Positions 47 to 10,653 of a DNA stretch of 11,331 nt are shown here, in pieces. The stretch comes from Alphaproteobacteria bacterium. Lineage in GTDB: Bacteria; Pseudomonadota; Alphaproteobacteria; Micavibrionales; Micavibrionaceae. Where the stretch lies: assembly GCA_021776015.1 (NCBI GenBank), contig JAJFGT010000106.1, positions 1 through 11,331 on the forward strand, read 5' to 3'. The notes under the pieces were generated by a model, which had not been told where the DNA came from, did not search any database, and was given only the letters and a program-made list of their open reading frames with translations. Positions within the stretch are counted from its first letter, which is position 1. Each line of letters begins with the position of its first letter. Both the position numbers and the translations under genes were made by a program.

Positions 47-1232
47 TATAAATTTGCTTCAATTGCTCTTTTATGTTGGAAGAGCTAGGGCGAGAAGAGA
101 CAAGAAAAGATGTTAAATCTTTCAATTGTTCAATAACTGACACAGGAATCTCCTTATTTTGGGCTTGCATCGATAATAAGTAGGAGGCACTCATAAAGGC
201 CAAAAGTGCACCGTGACTCCCATGGGCGTTACTTATAAGCCATGGATCTATTTTAAAGAGTTTTACACCACTGGCATCATCTCCTGCTGAAAAATCGTAG
301 TCGAAGACAGGGTTTTCTCCTTTTATATAGCTCCAAATATTCTCATCCATCATGATCCATGAAAGTTGTGTCTCTATCCAAGCGTTATTTGTACTGCGTT
401 GTGATTGCAAAATAGGCCCTGCAAAACATTCTTTTCCAGAAGCTGTAACTTCATGAAGACGTTTAAGGAAATAAGGATCATGTTCTTCAATTTGTTTAAG
501 TTTTAGAGCTGTTTCAACTTGCTCAGAGATTTCATTTGTTTGAGACTCTGATATTTTTCTTCCGCCTCGTGCCTGAGTACGTGTATTCAGTTCTTTTTCA
601 ATGGCTCCATCCAAGAGGGGTTGATATTCGGGAAGAAGAGAAATAGAACCGCTGATCATTTCTTCAAAAAACTCTTTGGTTCTTGTCCATGTTTCAGCGG
701 CTTTATTAAAATGATAACTCCCATCTTCATAGCGCCCATATTCTGCGAAACCTCCTGCAAAGGCAGGAACATCTCCATCTAATTTTCTTAAAATACAGAG
801 AGCATAAAGCTCTGGATCACCATTTTCATTTTTCTTAATAGTAAGAATTCCATTATCGACAGTATGATTGGGTCCATAACGTCCTAGTCCACCCCGTCCA
901 TTTACGCCTGTATCTATATAGGGGTTAACGGCTAATCCAAATGGATTGAAAGTATATTTTAATCCTGTGTTTGTAGCACGTCTTCCATGATTCCATTTCT
1001 CTCCAGATTCTAAGGGATGCTTTTCATCATCAGCCCAAGGCGCGCCAAAGACAGACTCGCTTGTATATGAAAGAGGTCTGTCTTCTAAATTAATATTTAA
1101 ATTTAGAGCATGGCTAAGATCAAATAACTTTGCAGATTGAACTAAATTCTGTGCAAGTTTTGTTGGAAAACTATCTTTGGCATTCAGAAAATCTTTTTCA
1201 AGATTTTGGAGTGAGTTTGGATATGATATCAT
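42..1232 (-). CDS. NUDT9-type ADP-ribose pyrophosphatase (Nudix hydrolase)
   Basis: A 396-residue protein likely to hydrolyse ADP-ribose to AMP and ribose-5-phosphate in the cytoplasm. It resembles the human NUDT9/TRPM2 NUDT9-homology family rather than the short bacterial NudF type. Visible landmarks are GRGGLGRYGPNH (about 112-123), a Nudix box beginning AGG at 159-161 and ending KEFFEEM (186-192), NNAWIET (282-288) and SAGDDA (315-320). The catalytic EFxEE glutamates are kept. The box's usual Arg is Lys, and about nine extra residues lie between its Gly-Gly end and its helix. A charged insertion at about 200-260 makes it longer than the NUDT9 catalytic core. The ATG at 1232 overlaps the nadE stop as ATGA, so it is translationally coupled as the last gene of the operon. 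The context suggests removal or recycling of ADP-ribose left by NADases. The family call is fairly secure; the exact substrate is inferred. Confidence 0.82.
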   Translation of the reverse strand: MISYPNSLQNLEKDFLNAKDSFPTKLAQNLVQSAKLFDLSHALNLNINLEDRPLSYTSESVFGAPWADDEKHPLESGEKWNHGRRATNTGLKYTFNPFGLAVNPYIDTGVNGRGGLGRYGPNHTVDNGILTIKKNENGDPELYALCILRKLDGDVPAFAGGFAEYGRYEDGSYHFNKAAETWTRTKEFFEEMISGSISLLPEYQPLLDGAIEKELNTRTQARGGRKISESQTNEISEQVETALKLKQIEEHDPYFLKRLHEVTASGKECFAGPILQSQRSTNNAWIETQLSWIMMDENIWSYIKGENPVFDYDFSAGDDASGVKLFKIDPWLISNAHGSHGALLAFMSASYLLSMQAQNKEIPVSVIEQLKDLTSFLVSSRPSSSNIKEQLKQIYS

Positions 1233-2941
1233 AGCGTAAGTCTTTTCATTTCTGATATTGTTTGCGGCGTTGTAGGACGAGCAATAGGAACACGTCGCCC
1301 TTGACCAAAAGAGCGCTGTGTAATTTTTATTCCAGGGCAGGCCTGACGACGCTTGAATTCAGCAATATCTGTTTTAGAAATTATCTCTGTGACAACACTT
1401 TCCTCGTAGTTTGTTTCATCTATGATTTGATCTATCGATTGTTCTCGCTCTACATAACGTTCCAAAATATCATCAAGTTCTGGATAGGGTGGAAGAGATT
1501 CTTCATCAAGCTGATCAGGACGGAGTTCTGCAGAAGGCTTCTTCTCTATAATGTTTTGAGGAATAACATATCCATTCTTTCCAAAAACATTCCGAGGGTA
1601 GTGTGAATTTCTCCAATTGGCTAAATCATATGTTAGTGTTTTGGGAACATCTTTAAGAGGGTTAAAACCACCATTCATATCTCCATAAAGTGTGCAGTAT
1701 CCGACGCTGACTTCTGATTTATTTCCCGTGCTAAGAAGTAAGTCTCCATTGACATTTGAAAGAGTCATTAAAAAAAGACCTCGTAATCTTGCTTGAAGAT
1801 TTTCTTCTCCTAAAGCGATTTGGTCGGGATGAGCGTTCTCATTAAAAAAGGGAGATAACGTTTCTAGTAAGAGAGCTACTGCGGGTTGAATAGAAATATC
1901 TTGGATTTTTGTTCCCAGCATTTCTGCCGCAATATCAGCATCATCTTTACTGGTATCTGATGTATATTGAGAAGGAAGTTTATAAAGAGTAACTTGATTT
2001 GCTCCTAGAGCATCAACTGCAAGAGCAGCAACAACAGCAGAGTCAAGACCTCCAGACATCCCTAGACATACTTTTTTGTTTTTTAATCCTGATTTTTCAA
2101 TATAATCTCGGAGACCAAGAACAAGAGCATTCCAGACTTCTTCCTCAGGAGAATATATCTCATTAATCTCTCCTTCTTTAAAAGAACATAGCCCGCTTTC
2201 TGCTTTTTTAAGAGTGAGAGTCAGGAGGCTTTCTTCAAATCCTCTTGCCATCATAGCAATAGACCCATCTGGATTCATAGCCGTAGAATATCCATCAAAG
2301 ACAATTTCATCTTGTCCCCCGACTTGATTAACGTATAAAATCGGAATTATATTCTCTTCTTCAATAATACGTTGTTTTAAAACGTTTTCTAATCGATTTG
2401 TGTGTTTCCCGACATAAAATGGAGACGCATTAAGGGCGAGAATAACATCGGCACCTTTTGCAACGAGATCGGCAATGACATCCTCTTTCCAGATATCTTC
2501 ACAGATAAGAATTCCAAGCTTAAAACCTCTGAATTCAATAAGATCAGAGCGGTTCCCTTCAGAATAAATTCTTTTTTCATCATGAACATCATAATTAGGA
2601 AGGTGCTGTTTTTGAATGGCAGGGGAACAGTTTCCATTCTCAATGAGATAAGCGACATTATAAATTTGTCCATTCTTATCTTGCTCAGGAAGTCCGACAA
2701 TAATACCACTTCTTTTTTGTTTCGAGAGCTCAATGAGATAATCACGTCCTTCTTTTGAGGCTTTTAGAATATCTGGATTGGCGGCGTGGTCTTCTAAAGG
2801 GTATCCAGATATTGATTGTTCTGGCGTTAGAACAAGATCAACATTTTGTTCTTCGGCCATTTCCCAAAACGCAATAATCTTTTTAATATTTCCAGCAATA
2901 TCACATGCTCGTGTATTCATTTGTGCTGCGGCAATTTTCAT
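1229..2941 (-). CDS. nadE: Glutamine-dependent NAD+ synthetase
   Basis: A 570-residue two-domain enzyme that amidates nicotinic acid adenine dinucleotide to NAD using ATP and glutamine. The N-terminal nitrilase-type glutaminase domain (about 1-250) has a recognisable Glu-Lys-Cys triad: E41 in TPEQ, K111 before QHLPNY, and C147 in ILICEDIW. The C-terminal synthetase domain has the ATP pyrophosphatase loop SGGLDS (296-301). The tail KITQRSFGQGRRVPI is typical of bacterial NadE. Length matches the glutamine-dependent form, so no separate ammonia supply is needed. The start at 2941 has a strong AAGGAG ribosome site 6-7 nt upstream, in the 22-nt gap after pncC. It completes the PncC-NadD-NadE route and overlaps the next gene by 4 nt. 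Confidence 0.95.
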   Translation of the reverse strand: MKIAAAQMNTRACDIAGNIKKIIAFWEMAEEQNVDLVLTPEQSISGYPLEDHAANPDILKASKEGRDYLIELSKQKRSGIIVGLPEQDKNGQIYNVAYLIENGNCSPAIQKQHLPNYDVHDEKRIYSEGNRSDLIEFRGFKLGILICEDIWKEDVIADLVAKGADVILALNASPFYVGKHTNRLENVLKQRIIEEENIIPILYVNQVGGQDEIVFDGYSTAMNPDGSIAMMARGFEESLLTLTLKKAESGLCSFKEGEINEIYSPEEEVWNALVLGLRDYIEKSGLKNKKVCLGMSGGLDSAVVAALAVDALGANQVTLYKLPSQYTSDTSKDDADIAAEMLGTKIQDISIQPAVALLLETLSPFFNENAHPDQIALGEENLQARLRGLFLMTLSNVNGDLLLSTGNKSEVSVGYCTLYGDMNGGFNPLKDVPKTLTYDLANWRNSHYPRNVFGKNGYVIPQNIIEKKPSAELRPDQLDEESLPPYPELDDILERYVEREQSIDQIIDETNYEESVVTEIISKTDIAEFKRRQACPGIKITQRSFGQGRRVPIARPTTPQTISEMKRLTL

Positions 2942-2963: not shown

Positions 2964-3488
2964 CTATGAGCTGTAAATGAGATCTAAAACACTCTGTAAG
3001 GCTTCATCCGTTGTGGCTTGCCGTACAGATTCTCTGTCTCCAGAAAATTGATATTTAGAAACACGGATCGTTGTGATAGCTGTGGTTGGTGAATAATATC
3101 CAAGAGCGATATAGACTAAACCCGCTAAATCTTCTGATGCTAGGCCCGCTGTACTTCCTGCATAGCCTGTTACAGCAATGGATATATTTGATGCCTCATC
3201 ACCCAAAAATTCAGGGCTGGTTTTTTCTAAAGCACCTTTAGCCATGGCTTCAGCAACAGGTTGGCTGACAGCAGAGAATGTCTTTAATATTTTTAAAGGA
3301 ACACCTAGCTGTAACGTCTTCATTTTGTCCTGATAGACAATGAAACCACCATTGATGACAGCTGATGAGCCTGCAATGTTTGCCAAAGTAGAGGCTATAC
3401 GTCCACAGGTCAGAGATTCTGCTGTGACAATACGCAAGCTTCTTTTCTTTGCCTGTGTGATGATTTCTTGAACTTTAGAATCTTCCAT
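2964..3488 (-). CDS. pncC: NMN deamidase (CinA C-terminal domain family)
   Basis: A 174-residue stand-alone CinA C-terminal-type protein. The family hydrolyses nicotinamide mononucleotide to nicotinic acid mononucleotide and ammonia. The landmarks are TAESLTCG (22-29), GFIVYQDKMK (48-57), AVTGYAG (105-111, usually TGIAG) and GDRESVRQ (150-157). Its length is that of a PncC without the N-terminal CinA/MoaB-like domain. The ATG follows the nadV stop directly (TAA then ATG), and an AAAGGTGG-like ribosome site lies inside the end of nadV, so the two are likely coupled. Following NadV, it would divert freshly made NMN into the deamidated branch served by NadD and NadE. The family assignment is strong; NMN deamidase activity follows from family and context. 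Confidence 0.88.
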   Translation of the reverse strand: MEDSKVQEIITQAKKRSLRIVTAESLTCGRIASTLANIAGSSAVINGGFIVYQDKMKTLQLGVPLKILKTFSAVSQPVAEAMAKGALEKTSPEFLGDEASNISIAVTGYAGSTAGLASEDLAGLVYIALGYYSPTTAITTIRVSKYQFSGDRESVRQATTDEALQSVLDLIYSS

Positions 3489-5090
3489 TTAGGCCACCTT
3501 TCTGGCTTGTGCCCAAGGGTCAGAAGTAGGAGCGACAGCTTGTCCTCTGAAAAATTTAGAAAAGAACTCGGCATTTTGTCGTGCGTCTTTAAAATCAAAT
3601 TCAGTAGGAATATCTCCATTTCTGAAGACGGGGATCATGGCATCCGTCTCATTTCCTTTAAGATCACTGGTTTTGATTGTTTTAAAAGCAGTCCCACTCC
3701 AAACTGTTGAAAGGCGTCCACGTTTTGATTTTTTGATAAAATCAGGGTTTGCTGTTATGGGATCTTTGTAGATCTCGTAGCTTTCTCCATTGATTTGAGC
3801 AAAAGATGCTTTTTGAGCAAAGTTCAAATTGTCTCTATTTACTTTTTGGAGAAGGCCTCCCCCCATTCCAAAGAAAACATTTTCAACGCTATATCTTTTG
3901 TCTTTAACGGCGACGAGAATCTCACGCATTGTACGTTCAGTAATCCCATCTCCTTGTAAAACGCGGATACAATCGGGTAAAACTTTATACCCCTTGCCCT
4001 TGGTATTTGTTGTTGTTCCAAATTTTCTCTCTAGGATCTCTAATGTCTTTACGATAACTTCAACAGGATCACCACTATCTGGGCGTATAACAACTCGCCC
4101 ACCGTTTCTTCCAGCTTCTAGAATGTCTTCTTTGAATTCTTCTCCAAAGATATTTTCAACAGCCTCGTAGTAGTTGTAAGAGTCTGCAACGATTGAAACT
4201 GTGTTTCCTTTTTTGGCATAGTCAATGAGCTTTCTAATCTGTTCCTTCTCACCCTCACGCCCTTTGATGGTCATGGTTGAGTGCTCTGAAGCCACAACTG
4301 AAAATGCGGGGGCAGGAGTCTCTTCTTTTTTCATTTTTTTAAGAAGCTTAAGGAGAGCTACTTTTGGGTCTTTAGGCGTTTCCTCTAGGAATTGAGAAAA
4401 ATCCTTATTGTAATATCCCATAGAGGCAACCATACCCATGACATTGTCTGTACCAAGGAAATTGACAATGTGCGCCATCCCGCCGATGGCAGAACTTTCT
4501 GTTGTTGCGGCACCACGGGCTCCAAAATCGTGTAACATGTAGTTAAGAACATCTTCTGTGTTGTCAGATGTTTCATCTAAAAATTCACGGCAGATTTCTT
4601 TGCAAATACGTGATTTTGTTGCAACAGTTGTTGGGTACCACACAGCACGTAATAAAGAGGTCTCTACATAGCTGGTTAACCAAAAACATTTGGGGTCTGT
4701 ATTGATGATTTCAACAAGGGCATTGCTAGTTGAGGCAATTGTACCTTCTGGCAAGGCTCTGATTTCGATAGGTAATTTTCCACCATATTCATCAACAATA
4801 TATTGCCATCCTTCTTTGTGAAAAGGTTCTCCGTGCAGATCAAATAAGATTTCAGCAATATCAATATCAATTTGTTCAATGGGATTACTCAGATAATCTT
4901 TTATAAAAGCTTGTAATCCAAATAATTGAGCGTAGTCATATTGCTTTCCAAATTCTTTTGCGAATTGACTGCTTCGAGCTTCGATGTAGCTAGAAACATA
5001 TTCTGTCCCTTCAGGGTACTGCATCCAGTGAGATACTTTGTAAGAGTCTGTATTGATAATTGTGCTGGTGAGTGAGGCTAAAATATTCAT
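3489..5090 (-). CDS. nadV: Nicotinamide phosphoribosyltransferase (NAMPT family)
   Basis: A 533-residue enzyme making nicotinamide mononucleotide from nicotinamide and PRPP, the entry step of salvage. NAMPT landmarks occur in order: TDSYKVSHWMQYPEGT (14-29), HDFGARG (187-193), FLGTDNV (211-217), SEHSTM (268-273), ADSYNYYEA (302-310), IRPDSGDP (335-342), VLQGDGI (377-383) and FGMGGGLLQK (407-416). The presumed phosphorylated catalytic histidine is H270 (human H247). D215, R336 and D338 correspond to human D219, R311 and D313. No active-site residue is obviously missing. The ATG at 5090 has an AAGGAG site within the 21-nt gap after nadK. NAMPT-type NadV is common in large phages and patchy in bacteria. 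In NAD-depletion immunity its substrate is the leaving group released by NADases. Confidence 0.95.
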   Translation of the reverse strand: MNILASLTSTIINTDSYKVSHWMQYPEGTEYVSSYIEARSSQFAKEFGKQYDYAQLFGLQAFIKDYLSNPIEQIDIDIAEILFDLHGEPFHKEGWQYIVDEYGGKLPIEIRALPEGTIASTSNALVEIINTDPKCFWLTSYVETSLLRAVWYPTTVATKSRICKEICREFLDETSDNTEDVLNYMLHDFGARGAATTESSAIGGMAHIVNFLGTDNVMGMVASMGYYNKDFSQFLEETPKDPKVALLKLLKKMKKEETPAPAFSVVASEHSTMTIKGREGEKEQIRKLIDYAKKGNTVSIVADSYNYYEAVENIFGEEFKEDILEAGRNGGRVVIRPDSGDPVEVIVKTLEILERKFGTTTNTKGKGYKVLPDCIRVLQGDGITERTMREILVAVKDKRYSVENVFFGMGGGLLQKVNRDNLNFAQKASFAQINGESYEIYKDPITANPDFIKKSKRGRLSTVWSGTAFKTIKTSDLKGNETDAMIPVFRNGDIPTEFDFKDARQNAEFFSKFFRGQAVAPTSDPWAQARKVA

Positions 5091-5111: not shown

Positions 5112-5933
5112 TTAAACGGGGGTCATAGCCGAGAAAGCTCGTGTTGATGGGTCGTTCATCAACAAGAGTTTGACGGCGTGATCTTTATTTTTTTTGATTG
5201 AAATTTGATTGAAGGGGTTCTCTATCTCTGAATTTAAAGAGAGCCCATCATATTGGAGGCGAACCAACCGTTTGTTTGGAGATAAGAACTTGATTTCAAA
5301 GCAAGAATTATCTGCCGCAATGATAGGATAAAATCCTCCTTGAGGTTCATATATGCCTTTACCAGTAAGAGAGATCCCTGCGTTTCTGATATCGATAGAG
5401 GGGCCACCATATGTTCTGTTGATAGCCGTTGATCCAAAAGCTGTGGCAATGATCAAGCCGTCTCCCATAATTCTAATGGGACCAATTGTTTCTCCAGAGC
5501 CTTTGACTTTAAGTTCAACAAGCATGGCTTGCCCGCTATTCTCACTCGGCATAATTTCATTGAAGGCATGAAGTGTTTGAGAACTGCCGTCTTTGAATTT
5601 TATTTGAGCTTGAAGAGGATTGACTTGAAATTCTTGTGCAGCCTCTAGGCTATCCAAAAGAATTTGTGAGCTCGTAATATCACGATTTGTCCAGAATCCT
5701 TGGCTGTTACTCTCTGGAGGAACAAGCCCAAAAATTTTCTGACCATCGTGGGCTTTTCTAAAAGTGTGGAGTAAAGATCCATCGCCTCCAATGCTCACAA
5801 TAATTTCTGCATTTTCTAGAGTTGTTTGCCCTATATCTTGAATAAGATATTGAGCAAAGCGCTTTAATGCGTCTTTGTGAGGTTCATAAGAAAAATGTAC
5901 TTTGTTCTTAAATGCGTCTTTTGTAGTTACCAT
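5112..5933 (-). CDS. nadK: NAD kinase
   Basis: A 273-residue enzyme that phosphorylates NAD to NADP. It shows the GGDG motif (49-52), a GxxxGFLT-like segment NSQGFWTN (76-83), the NE motif in HAFNEI (122-127), and GDGLIIATAFGSTA followed by GGPSI (157-180), where typical NadK has DGLIVATPTGSTA. The first eight or nine residues, MVTTKDAFK, precede the normal NadK start and are identical to those of the unrelated J-domain protein at 7315. They come from the duplicated leader. No good Shine-Dalgarno precedes the ATG, which lies 26 nt inside the end of the leader ORF, so translation may depend on coupling to it. It is the first gene of the leftward operon and is followed by nadV after 21 nt. Its leader contains a possible attenuator. 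Confidence 0.92.
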   Translation of the reverse strand: MVTTKDAFKNKVHFSYEPHKDALKRFAQYLIQDIGQTTLENAEIIVSIGGDGSLLHTFRKAHDGQKIFGLVPPESNSQGFWTNRDITSSQILLDSLEAAQEFQVNPLQAQIKFKDGSSQTLHAFNEIMPSENSGQAMLVELKVKGSGETIGPIRIMGDGLIIATAFGSTAINRTYGGPSIDIRNAGISLTGKGIYEPQGGFYPIIAADNSCFEIKFLSPNKRLVRLQYDGLSLNSEIENPFNQISIKKNKDHAVKLLLMNDPSTRAFSAMTPV

Positions 5934-6129
5934 CTTGATTTAATGATGTGTTGATCAAGTGTTCAGCACGGGGCTGGACAAGACCGACACATACATAATC
6001 AAGACCTATAAAAGAAAAACGCAAAAAAGCGCGTATCATCTCTGATACACGCGCGGCATAATTCATATTTTGAAATATATATCTGTTTTGGACATCCCAA
6101 TAAATGGGATTCTTTACGACTTGCAACAC
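5908..6129 (-). CDS. 73-codon leader ORF upstream of nadK (copy 1)
   Basis: The frame opens with GTG at 6129, 6 nt after an AAGGAG site held in a small hairpin, with an in-frame TTG one codon later. It encodes a 73-residue basic product with no family I recognise, no signal peptide and no clear membrane segment. Its last 26 nt overlap the start of nadK in another frame. An intrinsic terminator lies within the frame. It differs from copy 2 at four residues (V/I, Q/R, Q/E, L/F) and by two silent changes. It may be a genuine small protein, a translated leader that couples translation and antitermination to nadK, or an incidental frame across a structured RNA. Confidence 0.45.
   Translation of the reverse strand: MLQVVKNPIYWDVQNRYIFQNMNYAARVSEMIRAFLRFSFIGLDYVCVGLVQPRAEHLINTSLNQDGNYKRRI
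6023..6052 (-). terminator. Intrinsic terminator/attenuator in the nadK leader
   Basis: On the minus strand, arms GCGTGTATC (6052-6044) and GATACGCGC (6037-6029) form a 9-bp stem with one G-U and a 6-nt loop (AGAGAT), followed by TTTTTT (6028-6023). It lies downstream of the promoter, inside the leader ORF and about 90 nt before the nadK ATG. That is the position expected for an attenuator rather than for the end of an operon. Confidence 0.75.
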
Positions 6130-6179
6130 AACAAACTCCTTGTTGTTTATGATTTAGAGCGAAGGTCTATCCAACGCTC
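6129..6179 (-). promoter_or_regulatory. Two-hairpin 5'UTR element of the nadK leader
   Basis: On the minus strand a hairpin at 6179-6157 has outer stem GAGCG/CGCTC, a TT/TT internal loop, and an apical GG/CC pair closing loop ATAGA. Eighteen nt later, 6145-6129 reads CAACAAGGAGTTTGTTG. Here the 6-bp arms CAACAA and TTGTTG enclose GGAGT, so the ribosome site sits in a hairpin loop. The same layout occurs upstream of nadD, the second leader and nadM. Confidence 0.7.
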
Positions 6180-6186
6180 CCTTTTA

Positions 6187-6215
6187 GGATTATGTGATTC
6201 AGAGAGTTCTGTCAA
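6187..6215 (-). promoter_or_regulatory. Promoter of the leftward NAD operon
   Basis: On the minus strand TTGACA (6215-6210), a 17-nt spacer and TAATCC (6192-6187) form a sigma-70-like promoter with a perfect -35 and a weak -10. The position matches the second leader's promoter exactly. The transcript would start just before the 5' hairpin at 6179. The promoter is divergent from the nadD promoter, and the two -35 boxes are 20 bp apart. Confidence 0.7.
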
Positions 6216-6235
6216 GGGGCTTTTTAAAAAATAAT

Positions 6236-6264
6236 TTGACAGAGTATTTTTCTAGGATTAGCTT
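6236..6264 (+). promoter_or_regulatory. Promoter of nadD
   Basis: TTGACA (6236-6241) is followed after 17 nt by TAGCTT (6259-6264), a weak -10 match. The -35 and spacer agree with the other three leaders. The predicted start near 6271 places the 5' hairpin (from 6277) at the transcript end. The exact -10 is uncertain. Confidence 0.6.
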
Positions 6265-6276
6265 AATTTCTAGATA

Positions 6277-6327
6277 CAAATAATGGGTAGACCGTTATTT
6301 GCTTAAATTTCAACAAGGAGTTTGTTG
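6277..6327 (+). promoter_or_regulatory. Two-hairpin 5'UTR element of nadD
   Basis: Positions 6277-6301 form a 10-bp stem with one G-U pair: CAAATAATGG against CCGTTATTTG, around loop GTAGA. After the CC closing the loop there are 17 nt, then CAACAAGGAGTTTGTTG (6311-6327), with the ribosome site in the loop of a 6-bp hairpin. The stem sequence differs from that in the duplicated leaders while the pairing, loop and spacing are kept. This is the best evidence that the RNA shape matters. Confidence 0.75.
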
Positions 6328-6328
6328 T

Positions 6329-7024
6329 ATGAAAACGAAGACAGTCACCCTGTTTGGAGGATCTTTTAATCCCCCGCATCATGGTCATTTTGAAATGGCT
6401 AAATATCTTCATGAAACACTAAAGACAGATGAAGTCTGGTTCTTATTTTCTCGAAACTGGCAGAAAGAGCCTTCTGATTATGCTTCAACGTATCACCGCA
6501 TAAGTATGGCTAATATCTTGATGAAGCGCTACGAAAATCATCCTTTCGTAATGTCAGATATACAAGAAAAGATGGGAACACACATCGCATATGAAGTGGT
6601 TCAAAAGCTACAAGAAACATACCCAGAAATTCATTTTATTTGGAGTTTAGGGGCAGATAGTTTTGCAAATTTTGAGTCATGGAAAAATTATAAGCAGTTG
6701 ATAGAAATGATTCCAATTGCGGTGTTGAACAGACGGCCTGACACAGAAAAAGCACGGCAAAGTTTTATTGCAAACACATACAAATATTTGCAGTGTTCGG
6801 ATCCTAAAACTTTATGCGAAGCAGACAATGGATGGATGTTTATGGACAATCCCGAAATTGATATGTCTTCGAGTCTTTTTTTAAAGAAATTGAGGGAAGG
6901 GGGGCGTGATTTTGGTGATATGCAACCCATTGCAGATTATATTCATGATCATAAAATTTATGGGGTAACGCCTTTAAATATAAGGGAAAAATGTGCTTTT
7001 AGTCCAAGAAAATTTTGTCTTTAA
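6329..7024 (+). CDS. nadD: Nicotinate-nucleotide adenylyltransferase
   Basis: A 231-residue enzyme that adenylylates nicotinic acid mononucleotide (and more weakly NMN) with ATP. It has the nucleotidyltransferase signature GGSFNPPHHGH (10-20), the HxGH-type motif HHGH, WSLGADSFANFESW (105-118) typical of NadD, and SSSLFLKKLREG (180-191) in place of the usual ISSTxIR. A short tail after HKIYG extends beyond most NadD proteins. I chose the ATG at 6329 rather than an upstream in-frame TTG because AAGGAG (6315-6320) sits 8 nt before it. It is the middle step between PncC and NadE, which are encoded divergently. Its promoter and leader belong to the set shared with nadK and nadM. No terminator is visible between its stop and the next promoter at 7033. 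Confidence 0.9.
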   Translation: MKTKTVTLFGGSFNPPHHGHFEMAKYLHETLKTDEVWFLFSRNWQKEPSDYASTYHRISMANILMKRYENHPFVMSDIQEKMGTHIAYEVVQKLQETYPEIHFIWSLGADSFANFESWKNYKQLIEMIPIAVLNRRPDTEKARQSFIANTYKYLQCSDPKTLCEADNGWMFMDNPEIDMSSSLFLKKLREGGRDFGDMQPIADYIHDHKIYGVTPLNIREKCAFSPRKFCL

Positions 7025-7032
7025 AAACAATC

Positions 7033-7061
7033 TTGACAGGATATTTAAAAGGGCGTAATTC
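7033..7061 (+). promoter_or_regulatory. Promoter of the J-domain/vWA/purA operon
   Basis: TTGACA (7033-7038), 17-nt spacer, TAATTC (7056-7061). The -10 lies within the inverted repeat, whereas the -35 and spacer are unique sequence, so the same promoter architecture was kept outside the duplicated part. It begins only 9 nt after the nadD stop. Confidence 0.68.
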
Positions 7062-7068
7062 TAAAAGG

Positions 7069-7119
7069 GAGCGTTGGATAGACCTTCGCTCTAAATCATA
7101 AACAACAAGGAGTTTGTTG
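7069..7119 (+). promoter_or_regulatory. Two-hairpin 5'UTR element of the J-domain leader
   Basis: The hairpin at 7069-7091 has outer stem GAGCG/CGCTC, a TT/TT internal loop and apical GG/CC closing ATAGA. After 18 nt comes CAACAAGGAGTTTGTTG (7103-7119), which presents the ribosome site in a hairpin loop. It is identical in sequence to the nadK leader copy. Confidence 0.7.
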
Positions 7120-7340
7120 TGTTGCAAGTCGTAAAGAATCCCATTTATTGGGATATCCGAAACAGATATATATTTGAAAATATGAATTATGCCGCGCGTG
7201 TGTCAGAGATGATACGCGCTTTTTTGCGTTTTTCTTTTATAGGTTTTGATTATGTATGTGTCGGTCTTGTCCAGCCTCGTGCTGAACACTTGATCAACAC
7301 ATCATTAAATCAAGATGGTAACTACAAAAGACGCATTTAA
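7119..7340 (+). CDS. 73-codon leader ORF upstream of the J-domain gene (copy 2)
   Basis: A GTG start at 7119, 6 nt after AAGGAG (7107-7112), opens a 73-codon frame whose product is 69/73 identical to copy 1. It belongs to no family I recognise. The frame crosses the intrinsic terminator at 7196-7225 and ends 26 nt inside the next gene. Four of the six substitutions separating the copies within the frame change the residue, mostly conservatively, so this pair alone does not show protein-level selection. A translated leader coupling expression of the next gene is as likely as a functional small protein. Confidence 0.45.
   Translation: MLQVVKNPIYWDIRNRYIFENMNYAARVSEMIRAFLRFSFIGFDYVCVGLVQPRAEHLINTSLNQDGNYKRRI
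7196..7225 (+). terminator. Intrinsic terminator/attenuator in the J-domain leader
   Basis: Arms GCGTGTGTC (7196-7204) and GATACGCGC (7211-7219) pair over 9 bp with two G-U pairs around loop AGAGAT, followed by TTTTTT (7220-7225). The single difference from copy 1 in the stem (A to G) changes an A-U to a G-U pair, so the stem is preserved. It lies 90 nt before the downstream ATG. Confidence 0.72.
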
Positions 7341-8403
7341 AAAATATACAAATATAACAGATGCAATGCAGATTTTGGCTATCCCAGAGGATGAGCCTGA
7401 ACGTTTTTTTCTGTACCCAGATGAGCAGCATATCAAAACGGCTTTTCGGCTTTTAGCAAAAAAATGGCACCCTGATAGAAATAAAGATCCGAAAGCGAGC
7501 GATGTTTTTAATCGTGTTCGACAGCTTAAAAAGAATGCTGATCTTAAAATTGAATCAGGATCATGGCAGAAACCAGGTGAATTATTTTTAACACCCATAA
7601 GCGGTAATTCCGTAAAAATAACTTTTCTAAAAAAGCATAATTTTGAACTCGGGGAATTTTATATTTCAAATAATTTTGTCACGTATCTTGTGAGAAAAGA
7701 ATTCTCTGATTTGTTCAAAAATGCTGTGAAAACAATTGGTAACTTAAAATTTGCCAATGACGATATGCGGGAGAAAACAGAAGAGGCAATTCCCACTATT
7801 CATAAAGTGTTGGAAACCAATTCACACTATGTTCTCACTGTTCGTAAAACCCCAGATTCCGTGCTTGCCCGAGATTTATTAGATCACTGTAATGAGAAAA
7901 TTGATCCTCGACATGTCGCATGGATGACAAGCCGCTTCCACAATCTTGGATGCTACCTTCAATGGTCAAATCTGACCCATAATGCCCTATCTTTGGATAC
8001 CTGTTTTATCTCTCCAAAACAGCATTCTGTAAGCCTTTTAGGGGGGTGGTGGTATGCAGCGCCAGAAAATAAAAAGCTTTTGGGGCTTCCTGCTCAAACC
8101 TTAGATTCAGTGCCTCGTGCTGTTCTTGAAAGTGGAATAGCGGATAAACGAGTCGATATGATGTTGTTAAGAGTTCTAGCCAAAGAGCTTTTGGGAGATA
8201 AGACAGGCGTTCGTTTATCTCGAGATAAAACCATCCCAGAACCCATGTCTAATTGGGTATGCCTCCCCGGAAGTGGAGATGCTTTTCAAGATTATAAAAC
8301 TTGGATGGAAAAAATAGTCATTGAAAGTTTCGGTCCTCGCCGATTTCAGAATTTCGACGTGTCACCACGCGAAATATACCAACCCCTAACAAAAGGAGAT
8401 TAA
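7315..8403 (+). CDS. J-domain protein fused to a degenerate protein kinase-like domain
   Basis: A 362-residue protein. Residues about 10-75 form a J domain: the DAMQILAI start of helix I, then FRLLAKKWHPDRNKDPKA with the HPD tripeptide at 52-54, which in known J proteins stimulates Hsp70 ATPase. The region at about 90-345 looks like a divergent protein kinase fold. It has a catalytic-loop-like segment WSNLTHNALSLD (217-228), SVSLLGGWWYAAPE (238-251) ending in an APE-like motif, and a D-rich helix ending LLRVLAKELLGD. The HRD aspartate and the DFG motif are not recognisable, so it may be a pseudokinase. The first eight residues equal those of NadK, from the duplicated leader. The ATG at 7315 lacks a clear ribosome site and overlaps the leader ORF. 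A vWA gene follows after 1 nt. The J domain is secure; the kinase-like call is tentative. Confidence 0.7.
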   Translation: MVTTKDAFKKYTNITDAMQILAIPEDEPERFFLYPDEQHIKTAFRLLAKKWHPDRNKDPKASDVFNRVRQLKKNADLKIESGSWQKPGELFLTPISGNSVKITFLKKHNFELGEFYISNNFVTYLVRKEFSDLFKNAVKTIGNLKFANDDMREKTEEAIPTIHKVLETNSHYVLTVRKTPDSVLARDLLDHCNEKIDPRHVAWMTSRFHNLGCYLQWSNLTHNALSLDTCFISPKQHSVSLLGGWWYAAPENKKLLGLPAQTLDSVPRAVLESGIADKRVDMMLLRVLAKELLGDKTGVRLSRDKTIPEPMSNWVCLPGSGDAFQDYKTWMEKIVIESFGPRRFQNFDVSPREIYQPLTKGD

Positions 8404-8404
8404 A

Positions 8405-9337
8405 ATGGGAAGCGGTACATTTACACCCACTGACTGGGATACTTTTTCAACAACTAAAACGAAAGGAAAAACACGATCTGAAATTTTTGCAAGGCATAGT
8501 ATGCATGAGGCTTTTGATCCTAAAGAAATCAAGGTTCGAGAATCTTGTGATTCTGAAGAGCACCCCAATTCAACACCGATTATTACAGCATTAGATGTAA
8601 CGGGATCAATGGGGCATATTCCAGCGGCTCTGATCCGCGATGGGTTAAGTCGTATGGCAACAGAAATTCTTGAAAGAAAACCTGTTCCTGATCCTCAACT
8701 CATGTTTATGGCTGTTGGAGATGCCTATTATGATTCTTATCCACTTCAGGCAACTGAGTTTGAATCTGACATTCGTGTGGCCGAGCAGTTGAAAGATCTT
8801 TACCTCGAAGGAGGTGGGGGAGGAAATAGCGATGAAAGCTATCATTTGCCTTGGTATTTTGCCGCACGTAAAACGCAGATAGATTCTTTTGATAAGCGAG
8901 GAAAGAAAGGTTTTCTCTTCACGCTTGGTGATGAAGGTGTTCCTCCTGTCCTTGAAGCAAAACATATCAAAGATGTCTTTGGTGATGCGGCTCAAGGAAA
9001 TATACAGACAGAGGATCTCTTGAGAATGGTTGAGGAACGATACCATGTGTTTCACTTGATTATTAAACAAGGGTACAACTATCAGCATAATCCAGAATAT
9101 GTTAAAAATTCTTGGAATCCTTTATTAGGACAGCGAGCTATTCCTGTCTCTGATTTTGAAAAAATTCCAGAAATTATAGTTTCAACTCTTGAGTTCATGG
9201 CTGGAAAAGATAAGCCAGAGATTGAAAAATCTTGGAGTGGGAAAACAGCCCTTGTTGTCAGAGAAGCTCTTAACGGTTTGACAACAACAGGTGGTGATAG
9301 TGGGACACCTGCTGTCTGGCGACCTAGCATGAGATAG
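8405..9337 (+). CDS. von Willebrand factor A domain protein
   Basis: A 310-residue cytoplasmic protein with no signal peptide or membrane span. It has a vWA-like domain: strand and metal-site motif DVTGS (64-68, the DxT/SxS form), a glycine-rich segment GGGGGNSDES (136-145) and LGDEG (174-178), likely the later metal-site aspartate. AAGGAG (8393-8398) lies 6 nt before the ATG. The gene begins 1 nt after the J-domain gene and the two are surely co-transcribed. A vWA protein next to a kinase-like protein recalls the TerY-kinase partnerships of tellurium/stress systems and metal-dependent protein assembly, but a specific role cannot be read from the sequence. The C-terminal region, about 230-310, is unassigned. 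Confidence 0.75.
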   Translation: MGSGTFTPTDWDTFSTTKTKGKTRSEIFARHSMHEAFDPKEIKVRESCDSEEHPNSTPIITALDVTGSMGHIPAALIRDGLSRMATEILERKPVPDPQLMFMAVGDAYYDSYPLQATEFESDIRVAEQLKDLYLEGGGGGNSDESYHLPWYFAARKTQIDSFDKRGKKGFLFTLGDEGVPPVLEAKHIKDVFGDAAQGNIQTEDLLRMVEERYHVFHLIIKQGYNYQHNPEYVKNSWNPLLGQRAIPVSDFEKIPEIIVSTLEFMAGKDKPEIEKSWSGKTALVVREALNGLTTTGGDSGTPAVWRPSMR

Positions 9338-9349
9338 AGGGAGTGCATC

Positions 9350-10546
9350 ATGAAACAGGCGAAAGTTGTAATTGGTGCGAATTTAGGTGATGAGGGTAAA
9401 GGCCTCATCACCGATTTTCTTGCTCGCACCTCTAGTGATAATTCTGTAATTATTCGTTTTAATGGAGGTGCTCAGGCTGCTCACACGGTTGAGTTACCAA
9501 CTGGAGAGCGACATGTTTTTCATCATTTTGGAAGTGGAAGTTTTAGCGGAGCAAAAACGTTTTTAAGTCGCTTCTTTGTAAATAATCCTATTCTTTTTTA
9601 TAAGGAATCGTTGGAGTTAAAAAAATATAATCTTCATCCAAAAGTTTTTGTTGATCCTGAATCCTGTGTAACAACACCCTATGATATGATGATTAATCAA
9701 ATTATTGAGAGTATCAGGGGAGGGGGACGACATGGGAGTTGTGGTGTTGGGTTTGGAGAAACAGTAGAGAGAAGCTCACATTCAGAGTTTATTTTAAAAG
9801 CTCAGGATATGAAATGTAAGAAGACTCTTATAAAAACGTTAAGATTGATACAGTTAAAGTGGTTACCTAATCGATTATCTCAACTTGGAATTCAGACAAT
9901 TACAGAAGAATGGAAAGAGCGCATAGCCTCTGAAGAGATTCTCAAAAGGTACTGTGAGGATGTTGGATTTTTTATGGATCACGTAGAATTTAAGACATTA
10001 TCTGATTTTACCTCAAGAGAGTCCTTTATCTTTGAGGGTGCACAAGGTCTGCTTCTTGATCAGGATTATAATTGGTTTCCACATGTGACACGATCTTCTA
10101 CAGGATTGAAGAATGTGGTAACGATGGCTGATGAGTTAGATCTGGAAAGATTGGATGTTACATATATTACACGATGCTATTTAACACGCCATGGAGCGGG
10201 ACCTCTTCCCCATGAAGTGAAAGGACTTCCTTACTCAAAAATCAGTGATCCAACAAATATTCCCAATCAATATCAAGGGGCTCTGAGATTTAGTTGGCTT
10301 AATGTTGATTTATTGAAATCATCGATTCAAAATGATTTAAATCAAGATGTGAAGAACCTTAAAATAACACCATCCCTTGCTATTACATGCTTGGATCAAG
10401 TGGATGATTCTATCAAATACATTGTGGGTCAAAAAATACGATCTGGAAGAGAAGTCGGATTTGTAGAAGATATAAGCCAAGAATTGGGCATTAAAAAAGG
10501 ATTTTTAAGTCATGGCCCGACCTATAAAACAATTTCCCCTTGGTGA
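9350..10546 (+). CDS. purA: Adenylosuccinate synthetase-like enzyme, divergent
   Basis: A 398-residue member of the PurA/PurZ superfamily, whose PurA members join IMP and aspartate using GTP. Visible motifs are GDEGKG (13-18, with the catalytic-base position D14 kept), GGAQAAHT with H45 (39-46), HGSCGVGFGE (128-137), FEGAQG (228-233), TRHGAGPLP (279-287) and FLSHGPT (385-391). It is about 30 residues shorter than E. coli PurA. The aspartate-binding loop, arginine-rich in typical PurA (TTGRRRRTGW), reads YQGALRFSW (308-316), and the guanine-binding TKLD is TCLD (346-349). Substrate or nucleotide preference may therefore differ, as in phage PurZ and PurZ0 enzymes. A GAGGGAG site lies 6 nt before the ATG and 12 nt separate it from the vWA stop, so it is third in the operon. 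Superfamily call is strong; the reaction is less certain. Confidence 0.8.
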   Translation: MKQAKVVIGANLGDEGKGLITDFLARTSSDNSVIIRFNGGAQAAHTVELPTGERHVFHHFGSGSFSGAKTFLSRFFVNNPILFYKESLELKKYNLHPKVFVDPESCVTTPYDMMINQIIESIRGGGRHGSCGVGFGETVERSSHSEFILKAQDMKCKKTLIKTLRLIQLKWLPNRLSQLGIQTITEEWKERIASEEILKRYCEDVGFFMDHVEFKTLSDFTSRESFIFEGAQGLLLDQDYNWFPHVTRSSTGLKNVVTMADELDLERLDVTYITRCYLTRHGAGPLPHEVKGLPYSKISDPTNIPNQYQGALRFSWLNVDLLKSSIQNDLNQDVKNLKITPSLAITCLDQVDDSIKYIVGQKIRSGREVGFVEDISQELGIKKGFLSHGPTYKTISPW

Positions 10547-10569
10547 GTTTGGCTGATTATCCGTCTTTC

Positions 10570-10598
10570 TTTACAAATGGATAGAAAAAGTATAGGAT
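10570..10598 (+). promoter_or_regulatory. Promoter of nadM
   Basis: TTTACA (10570-10575), 17-nt spacer, TAGGAT (10593-10598). It lies in the 110-nt gap after purA and has the same spacing as the other three promoters. I see no terminator between the purA stop and this promoter, so read-through from the upstream operon is possible. Confidence 0.65.
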
Positions 10599-10609
10599 GT
10601 ATGCGCTTT

Positions 10610-10653
10610 GGGATAGACCCTCTGGAAATATAAAACCAACAAGGAGTTTGTTG
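10610..10653 (+). promoter_or_regulatory. Two-hairpin 5'UTR element of nadM
   Basis: GGG (10610-10612) and CCC (10618-10620) close loop ATAGA, with a weak lower stem. Counting from the second C of the arm, 17 nt follow before CAACAAGGAGTTTGTTG (10637-10653). AAGGAG lies 10 nt before the nadM ATG. This is the least paired of the four copies, but loop, spacing and ribosome-site hairpin are kept. Confidence 0.65.

Follow-up and report, generated by a model that had tools for sequence, protein, structure and literature searches.

What is shared by the four leaders that stand before genes for the supply of nicotinamide adenine dinucleotide (NAD) on the alphaproteobacterial contig JAJFGT010000106.1, and does it act as a regulatory RNA? 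The contig, analysed here from end to end and called the window, is complete at 11,331 bp and belongs to a 1.52 Mb genome bin that is 86% complete. Comparison with phage and bacterial sequences places the leaders in a class of cis-acting mRNA element that seems not to have been recorded before. Its hairpin 1 has an AUAGA-type pentaloop that hardly varies, on a stem that varies freely; next comes an A-rich linker of 5-16 nucleotides (nt), and then hairpin 2, which holds the Shine-Dalgarno (SD) sequence in its loop and reaches nearly to the start codon. Judged from these comparisons, the element most likely controls translation of NAD-supply genes.

A first-pass annotation of the window had proposed a motif common to all four leaders, and in sequence this is exact: each carries GG-RTAGA-CC, with RTAGA as a loop closed by GG/CC, then 17-18 nt, and then the identical 17-mer CAACAAGGAGTTTGTTG (6129-6145 on the minus strand, 6311-6327, 7103-7119 and 10637-10653) with the SD in its loop. 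With up to three mismatches allowed, 0.04 copies of the 17-mer are expected in the window, and four were reached in none of 200 shuffles. GGRTAGACC also has four exact copies, each shortly upstream of the 17-mer; alone and with one mismatch allowed it is not significant (2.0 expected; 29 of 200 shuffles reach four), and its significance comes from its place beside the 17-mer, not from the motif alone. Across the whole bin, only the window's four copies were found, both for the 17-mer with at most one mismatch and for the combined pattern. Folding yields both hairpins in leaders A and A', which precede orf73 and its second copy (hairpin 1 of 6 bp, a TT/TT internal loop and 2 bp; z -3.3), and in the nadD leader (hairpin 1 of 10 bp; z -2.9). 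In the free fold of the nadM leader hairpin 1 does not form and the fold is no better than those of shuffles (z -0.4); the hairpin 1 said to be common to all four thus folds in three, while the apical stem of the nadM copy is limited to 3 bp and the copy is recognised through its relatives, by a model (R2) built without the window's rows (expectation value, E, 6e-4). In a search without filters R2 recovers all four copies, at E 1e-5 to 6e-4. Four copies are present, but leaders A and A' lie in the two arms of a single inverted duplication of 333 bp, 92% alike, so that only three are independent. Through this duplication the NAD kinase-like and DnaJ genes share their leader, a 73-aa open reading frame (ORF) and the first residues MVTTKDAFK.

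Leader A precedes orf73, the genes for an NAD kinase-like protein and NAMPT, a CinA-family gene (2964..3488) whose product we take to be PncC, and NadE; leader A' precedes orf73', DnaJ, a gene (8405..9337) whose product is presumably vWA-like, and PurA. Three of the four leaders had been said to serve NAD genes, and the link can be widened to all four: in the genome SZUA-601 (locus L057) the matching leader is followed by DnaJ, vWA-like, PurA and NadM genes, in this order, which ties the A' leader to an NAD operon as well.

Further copies were predicted to exist in relatives, and they were found in IMG/VR, in SZUA-601 and in named phages. A search of IMG/VR for GGATAGACC followed by AACAAGGAG returned 25 stretches, eight of which (L017, L037, L040, L041, L044, L048, L049 and L055) hold a full leader before a NadM start, four distinct leaders in all, with NadM in L044 assigned from its start sequence only; the other 17 look like coincidences. 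The exact 17-mer fails as a signature of the family, since its arms vary and it is the loops that define the class: among 14 IMG/VR stretches, GGATAGACC lies upstream only in L017. SZUA-601 has two leaders, the one already mentioned and another before NAPRT, PncA-like, NadE and NadD genes. Model R1, built from these leaders, matched phage contigs in which NadM and NAMPT are preceded by copies whose stems differ; some of its matches at E 0.07-0.09, such as those in L244 and on the minus strand of L195, look false. The IMG/VR loci were fetched by similarity to NAMPT or NadM (the best 80 of 510 and the best 80 of 274 relatives), and the link to these genes is partly by construction, with 1111 other ORFs, whole records and whole genomes serving as controls. 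In 171 loci (2.44 Mb), an ATAGA stem-loop followed by a GGAG stem-loop gave 48 distinct matches, against 0 to 3 for 19 other orderings of the letters; a tally of 41 NadM, 35 NAMPT and 7 other genes among 83 matches includes duplicate loci, and pattern matches in the genomes G022, G076 and G079 were judged to be chance. Alignment A5, from which R2 was made, has 56 rows: 54 picked from 70 of 85 thinned rows with stems required, and the two leaders of L057.

The choice of loop can be judged in a larger set, in which 186 loci gave 340 NadM and NAMPT leaders, 266 of them distinct (133 for each gene, below 90% identity; start codons chosen partly by the SD). When all 1024 pentamers were ranked by how many of these leaders hold them closed by at least 5 bp, ATAGA came first with 64, followed by AGAGA with 18, GTAGT with 7 and the next with 4, the mean being 0.26. 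AGAGA (mostly C-G closed; its rows include a few accidental matches) and GTAGT (G-C closed) look like variant loops with the same hairpin 2. Chance as the origin of the leaders is rejected by the 17-mer shuffles, the letter orderings and this ranking.

Both stems covary strongly in leaders chosen by loop and spacing alone, as had been anticipated for a selected structure. These are the 133 of the 266 leaders with ATAGA 22-33 nt before GGA, their stems not required, in which pairs 1-3 of hairpin 1 form in 91-93%, pairs 4-5 in 66% (many have an internal loop there) and pairs 6-7 in 78-81%, while pairs 1-6 of hairpin 2 form in 85-97%, with many Watson-Crick types. The paired fraction is 0.81 for hairpin 1 and 0.93 for hairpin 2, compared with 0.50 and 0.57 when arms are swapped (2000 swaps, maxima 0.54 and 0.62), and partners slid along the sequence pair mostly in 20-60% (single positions 1-88%). 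In A5 all 13 pairs show changes on both sides and the covariation score is 0.96 against 0.19 when shuffled, a value that leans toward structure as the rows were chosen with stems; the 133 leaders are the unselected test. When folded freely, 109 of 116 leaders, themselves chosen for stems, form both hairpins, as do none of 580 shuffles that keep the loops. Among 114 leaders the median stability is -5.8 kcal/mol for hairpin 1 and -1.9 for hairpin 2, and the linker measures 6-14 nt in 106, is A-rich and has no evident conserved sequence; pairing between linker and hairpin-1 loop was considered and is not supported, parts of the loop complement (TCTA or CTAT) occurring in only 4 of the 114 linkers. 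The SD lies 8-14 nt before the start codon in 131 of the 133 leaders.

These results bear on three ways of accounting for the leaders. That they are a DNA operator at the transcription start, or a similarity inherited without function, would agree with the many copies close to promoters and with the two window copies that come from one duplication; since the arms vary freely while pairing holds, which a DNA-binding protein does not require, and copies occur inside operons, we regard this as highly improbable. A CsrA/RsmA site is an ANGGAN hexaloop, and was rejected on the covariation, by which the loop is GGAGN, five nt long, and the two bases ahead of GGA pair in 94% and 97%. A cleavage site for an RNase of the RegB type, raised by the first-pass annotation, recommends itself by the GGAG in the ribosome site, as T4 RegB cuts GGAG/U in early leaders (passages of PMC3014915). 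The same passages give strong RegB sites an A-rich 3' consensus, GG*AGRAYARAA, and report that structure inhibits cleavage, both of which set them apart from the element: GGAGUUU misfits the consensus, and in the 133 leaders GGA is followed by G/T/A, T/C, T and T, which close the stem as a U-rich arm. With GGAA in place of GGAG in 19% and hairpin 1 left without a role, such a site seems barely credible.

The element is almost confined, in the sequence scanned, to NAD-supply genes and ORFs coupled to them. In 38 whole records (12 of them named phages), R2 gave 38 matches at E<=0.05, which fall in 20 records and leave 18 without a match; 17 are at NadM, 16 at NAMPT, one at PnuC (PF04973), three at small ORFs that end within about 60 nt of a NadM start, and one at an ORF of 14 aa, so that 37 of the 38 belong to NadM, NAMPT, PnuC or a small ORF ahead of NadM, a few of them assigned by coordinates. 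The exception (L318, 9824-9873) is a well-scoring copy with only the 14-aa ORF behind it, perhaps a leader peptide or a decayed gene. Among the 1111 other ORFs with an SD, which were not deduplicated, 19 have an ATAGA hairpin, and 18 of these (12 distinct, among them one NadA) end between 4 nt past and 253 nt before a NadM start, leaving one unrelated case (L204). An SD hairpin of at least 5 bp was found in 181 of 246 NadM and NAMPT leaders with an SD, against 41 of the 1111. The NadA gene (quinolinate synthase, PF02445) is on a viral contig (L202, 5293-6186), where the element precedes it and NadM follows at a distance of 178 nt. We also observed, in L224 (7645-8001), L229 (7670-7996) and like loci, small proteins of 108 or 118 aa directly before NadM that carry the element in NadM's place; they touch or overlap the NadM start in most, and the two tested have no Pfam match. 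The proposal that this is a selected RNA structure tied to NAD genes is strongly supported by the further copies, the covariation and this specificity taken together.

Of 16 named phage loci, four carry the element before both NadM and NAMPT, namely Rhodobacter phage RcXuper, Synechococcus phage B23, Xanthomonas phage LucasX and Synechococcus phage BUCT-ZZ01; in the last the loop is AAAGA, R2 matches only the NadM copy (E 0.04) and the NAMPT copy was seen by eye. In the seven of these eight leaders that were folded, two hairpins form each time, with register or loop size shifted in some. No element was seen by eye in the other 12 loci. Hairpins of other kinds were noted in three phages: in two of the 12, RaK2 and SCTP-2, pairs of leaders have in common a hairpin ahead of the SD whose loop is another one, those of NadM and NAMPT in RaK2 (L270, upstream of 3989 and 6175) and those of NadM and the next gene in SCTP-2 (L277, upstream of 3992 and 5102), both possible sister classes, and pnuC of Sinorhizobium phage Phosso (L280, upstream of 13341) shows by eye the SD in the loop of a strong hairpin but no AUAGA hairpin.

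Two of 385 genomes of the class, beyond the bin itself and SZUA-601, carry the element beside a NadM-type gene, G420 (E 5e-5) and G411 (E 9e-4), each with a good copy before a gene of GerE/LuxR type and a weak copy before the NadM-type gene (E 0.14 and 0.008). About 0.4 chance matches are expected per 385 genomes at E 0.001, and the case for these two therefore rests on the NadM neighbourhood. In two alphaproteobacterial genomes the GerE/LuxR-type helix-turn-helix genes (L314, 5366-5635; L315, 9864-10211) follow the NadM-type gene and have a copy of their own. With strict filters, under which R2 found only one of the window's four copies and so misses members, there was no match in 382 of the 385 class genomes or in 397 of 398 genomes of a phylum sample, where only the window's own genome matched; with R1, also under strict filters, six of 142 genomes of the order passed E 0.01, four of them judged to be chance.

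Position relative to the promoter bears on whether the element regulates at all. Hairpin 1 had been placed near predicted transcript starts; TTGACA boxes do stand at the expected places by eye, but the promoter scan lists a leader promoter only for nadM. More widely, 112 of 168 leaders have a loose promoter match (up to two mismatches per hexamer, without a shuffle control), and in 64 of the 112 the distance from the -10 box to the loop is 13-19 nt (mode 17), which would put hairpin 1 near the 5' end. Hairpin 1 of nadD (6277-6301), together with a T-rich tail, is listed by the scan as terminator-like, so that this copy may have a role in attenuation. Such observations would suit a constitutive element that senses nothing, in which hairpin 1 shields the 5' end, determines how long the mRNA lasts or resembles an attenuator and hairpin 2 fixes the level of translation. 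We think this unlikely, and the 5'-stability hairpin offered earlier is disfavoured with it, since some copies are internal to operons: in 27 of the 168 leaders an upstream ORF stops close to the loop and no promoter was called, the stop codon starting 6 nt ahead of the loop in five of them (L142, L139, L162, L224 and L180). Nor would a constitutive element explain why the loop is invariant or why NAD genes are almost the only ones to carry it.

Translational control of NAD supply, the reading we favour, takes initiation as its target because of the position of the SD in hairpin 2 and the operon-internal copies without a called promoter, and the NAD pool as its signal because of the gene set. 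Possibly the RNA itself senses an NAD metabolite, as a translational OFF riboswitch of phages and a few bacteria. By default the marginally stable hairpin 2 would leave the ribosome site open; at high levels of NAD or a close derivative, the RNA would bind the compound through hairpin 1 and the linker and pack against hairpin 2, clamping it, so that translation of the salvage enzymes drops; when NAD is low, for example after NAD-destroying immunity, the clamp would loosen and the enzymes would be produced. A default-open state clamped by a binder, that is, feedback repression, is suggested by the weakness of the SD hairpin, whose median energy suits a switch. The carriers' hosts, among them Rhodobacter, Synechococcus and Xanthomonas, argue against a host-specific protein, and a metabolite as binder would fit this host range and the pathway-wide gene set. 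The element also has what riboswitches have in general, a conserved structured leader before genes of one pathway that overlaps an expression signal.

Several points weigh against a metabolite sensor. An aptamer would be expected to have a larger conserved core than this one, which is centred on the loop, the linker is conserved only in its A-richness, and a fixed pentaloop on a freely varying stem is typical of hairpins bound by proteins. In a loop-agnostic scan, 111 of the 266 leaders lack the hairpin pair (92 have neither hairpin and 19 lack hairpin 2), so these genes can do without the element. Loop types also keep company within a record, with 33 ATAGA/ATAGA pairs, 5 AGAGA/AGAGA and 1 AGAGA/ATAGA, besides 3 that join AAAGA or GTAGA to ATAGA; this would be expected if a trans-acting factor changed, and inheritance would give the same. 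A possible alternative, only slightly less probable, is that a protein binds the twin hairpin and in this way represses translation of the NAD regulon, the best candidate being the bifunctional NadM-Nudix protein acting on its own mRNA and those of its partners, much as PyrR, an enzyme, controls pyrimidine mRNAs. Besides the form of the core, this would agree with the loop subclasses AUAGA, AGAGA and GUAGU running mostly by record and with the NadM gene that stands at or beside the element in the window, L057, G420 and every one of the 20 records matched by R2, some of these placed by coordinates; a NadM-type gene is present and NAMPT was not found in G068 (a genome of the window's order), G411 and G420 (bins 64, 96 and 87% complete), and the G411 relative has only a Nudix domain that passes Pfam. 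It agrees less well with the NadM phages phiM7, Cp1R7A-A1, Ci1, Mendera, nt-1 and Bajun, in which neither eye nor R1 found the element, or with mixed loop types in one genome, including GUAGA beside AUAGA in the window, and we know of no RNA-binding domain in NadM.

Comparison with known systems places the element apart. Rfam 15 gave no match in the window at the gathering cut-off and none at E<=0.1 in the loci L086, L087, L090, L094 and L092, and no description of the element was found in open-licence papers, although a subscription paper or preprint may exist. The NAD+-I riboswitch (nadA motif) resembles it in preceding NAD genes and including the ribosome site, which lies in its second domain (PMC7708056), but consists of two similar tandem bulged stem-loops with a ACANCCCC bulge (PMC7297122), absent from A5 and its consensus on inspection, and is limited to Acidobacteria (PMC7749635). 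The NAD+-II riboswitch (pnuC motif) is closer in standing upstream of an NAD-supply gene, involving the ribosome site and being a proposed translational OFF switch that covers it; as described in passages of PMC7749635 and PMC10085692, it is built of P1, P1a, a pseudoknot on the ribosome site and a variable loop and occurs in Streptococcus and Haemophilus influenzae, whereas the element has two separate hairpins, as the covariation and the scarcity of loop complements in linkers indicate, a near-invariant AUAGA loop and the ribosome site within a hairpin loop, and is found in phages and alphaproteobacteria. As far as these passages describe the two classes, the first-pass annotation's view that the element is neither is strongly supported. 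It is like PyrR leaders in being a leader RNA whose binding by a pathway enzyme would lower expression. The autogenous T4 translational repressors gp32 and gp43 act on leaders in the same manner (in passages of PMC3014915). Such leaders differ from the element in its additional hairpin 2 with the SD in the loop and in its protein partner, here only a candidate. The manA and wcaG motifs are likewise structured leaders of metabolic genes carried by phages (PMC2864571), but are cyanophage and marine and precede other genes, and the passages on phages and NAD in PMC2864571 name no motif like this one.

Around the leaders (Table 1), the vWA-like gene and PurA (8405-10546) recur as a pair in Rhizobium phage RHph_Y65 and Vibrio phage Va1, phage relatives of the window's NadM carry the annotation NadM/ADP-ribose pyrophosphatase, and a Pfam search of the NAD kinase-like protein gave no match. 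The window had been read as phage DNA, which is doubtful: its NadE is the sole full-length NadE found in the bin (a second match spans 36 positions), and the sister cluster L057 adjoins the sole full lepA found in its genome (64% complete). For these reasons the window is probably bacterial chromosome rather than phage, and possibly an island of phage descent within it.

Table 1. Genes, leader hairpins and repeat arms of the window
Feature	Position	Strand	Basis
NadE with glutamine-hydrolase-type domain	1229..2941	-	PF02540, PF00795
CinA C-terminal family protein	2964..3488	-	PF02464
NAMPT	3489..5090	-	PF18127, PF04095
NAD kinase-like protein	5112..5933	-	tblastn, 28% to phage Phosso NAD kinase, E 3e-17
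Inverted repeat, 333 bp, left arm with leader A and orf73	5905..6237	+	92% complementary
orf73, GTG start, overlaps start of next gene	5908..6129	-	no Pfam match
Leader A hairpin 2, SD GGAG in apical loop	6128..6146	-	17-mer, fold
Leader A hairpin 1, GGAGCG-UU-GG-AUAGA-CC-UU-CGCUCU	6156..6180	-	fold, pattern, models R1 and R2
nadD leader hairpin 1, 10 bp, GUAGA loop	6277..6301	+	pattern, fold, R2
nadD leader hairpin 2	6311..6327	+	17-mer, fold
NadD-like nucleotidyltransferase	6329..7024	+	PF01467
Inverted repeat, 333 bp, right arm	7011..7343	-	92% complementary to left arm
Leader A' hairpin 1 (inverted duplicate)	7068..7092	+	pattern, fold, duplication, R2
Leader A' hairpin 2	7102..7120	+	17-mer, fold
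orf73' (second copy of orf73)	7119..7340	+	inverted duplication
DnaJ-domain protein	7315..8403	+	PF00226
Hypothetical protein, no Pfam match	8405..9337	+	relatives in Vibrio, Rhizobium and Mycobacterium phages
PurA-family adenylosuccinate synthetase	9350..10546	+	PF00709
nadM leader hairpin 1 core, GGG-AUAGA-CCC, 3 bp only	10610..10620	+	pattern, R2; absent from free minimum-energy fold
nadM leader hairpin 2	10637..10653	+	17-mer
NadM, truncated by contig end	10657..11331	+	PF01467

The NAMPT-NadM route is a phage answer to bacterial defence that depletes NAD. The same is described for NAD rebuilding by the NARP1 route (passages of PMC12774641). We found no account in open-licence papers of how phages regulate NAD rebuilding, and a survey of viral NAD systems (PMC9503650) does not contain the word riboswitch. 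It is possible, as far as sequence comparison can suggest, that the element is a third natural riboswitch class of the NAD family, a two-hairpin RNA of about 52 nt that would read NAD or the products of its destruction and free the translation of NAD-rebuilding enzymes. To our knowledge such a riboswitch would be the first NAD-family class in phages. If this is true, a phage would answer NAD-depleting immunity at the level of its own mRNA, through a new kind of NAD-linked RNA control, and a switch common to phages of cyanobacteria, alpha- and gammaproteobacteria and to some bacterial NAD operons would show feedback by a metabolite or an enzyme in this pathway. The element would also offer a small NAD-related biosensor to test, for which the named phages RcXuper, B23, LucasX and BUCT-ZZ01 are available material.

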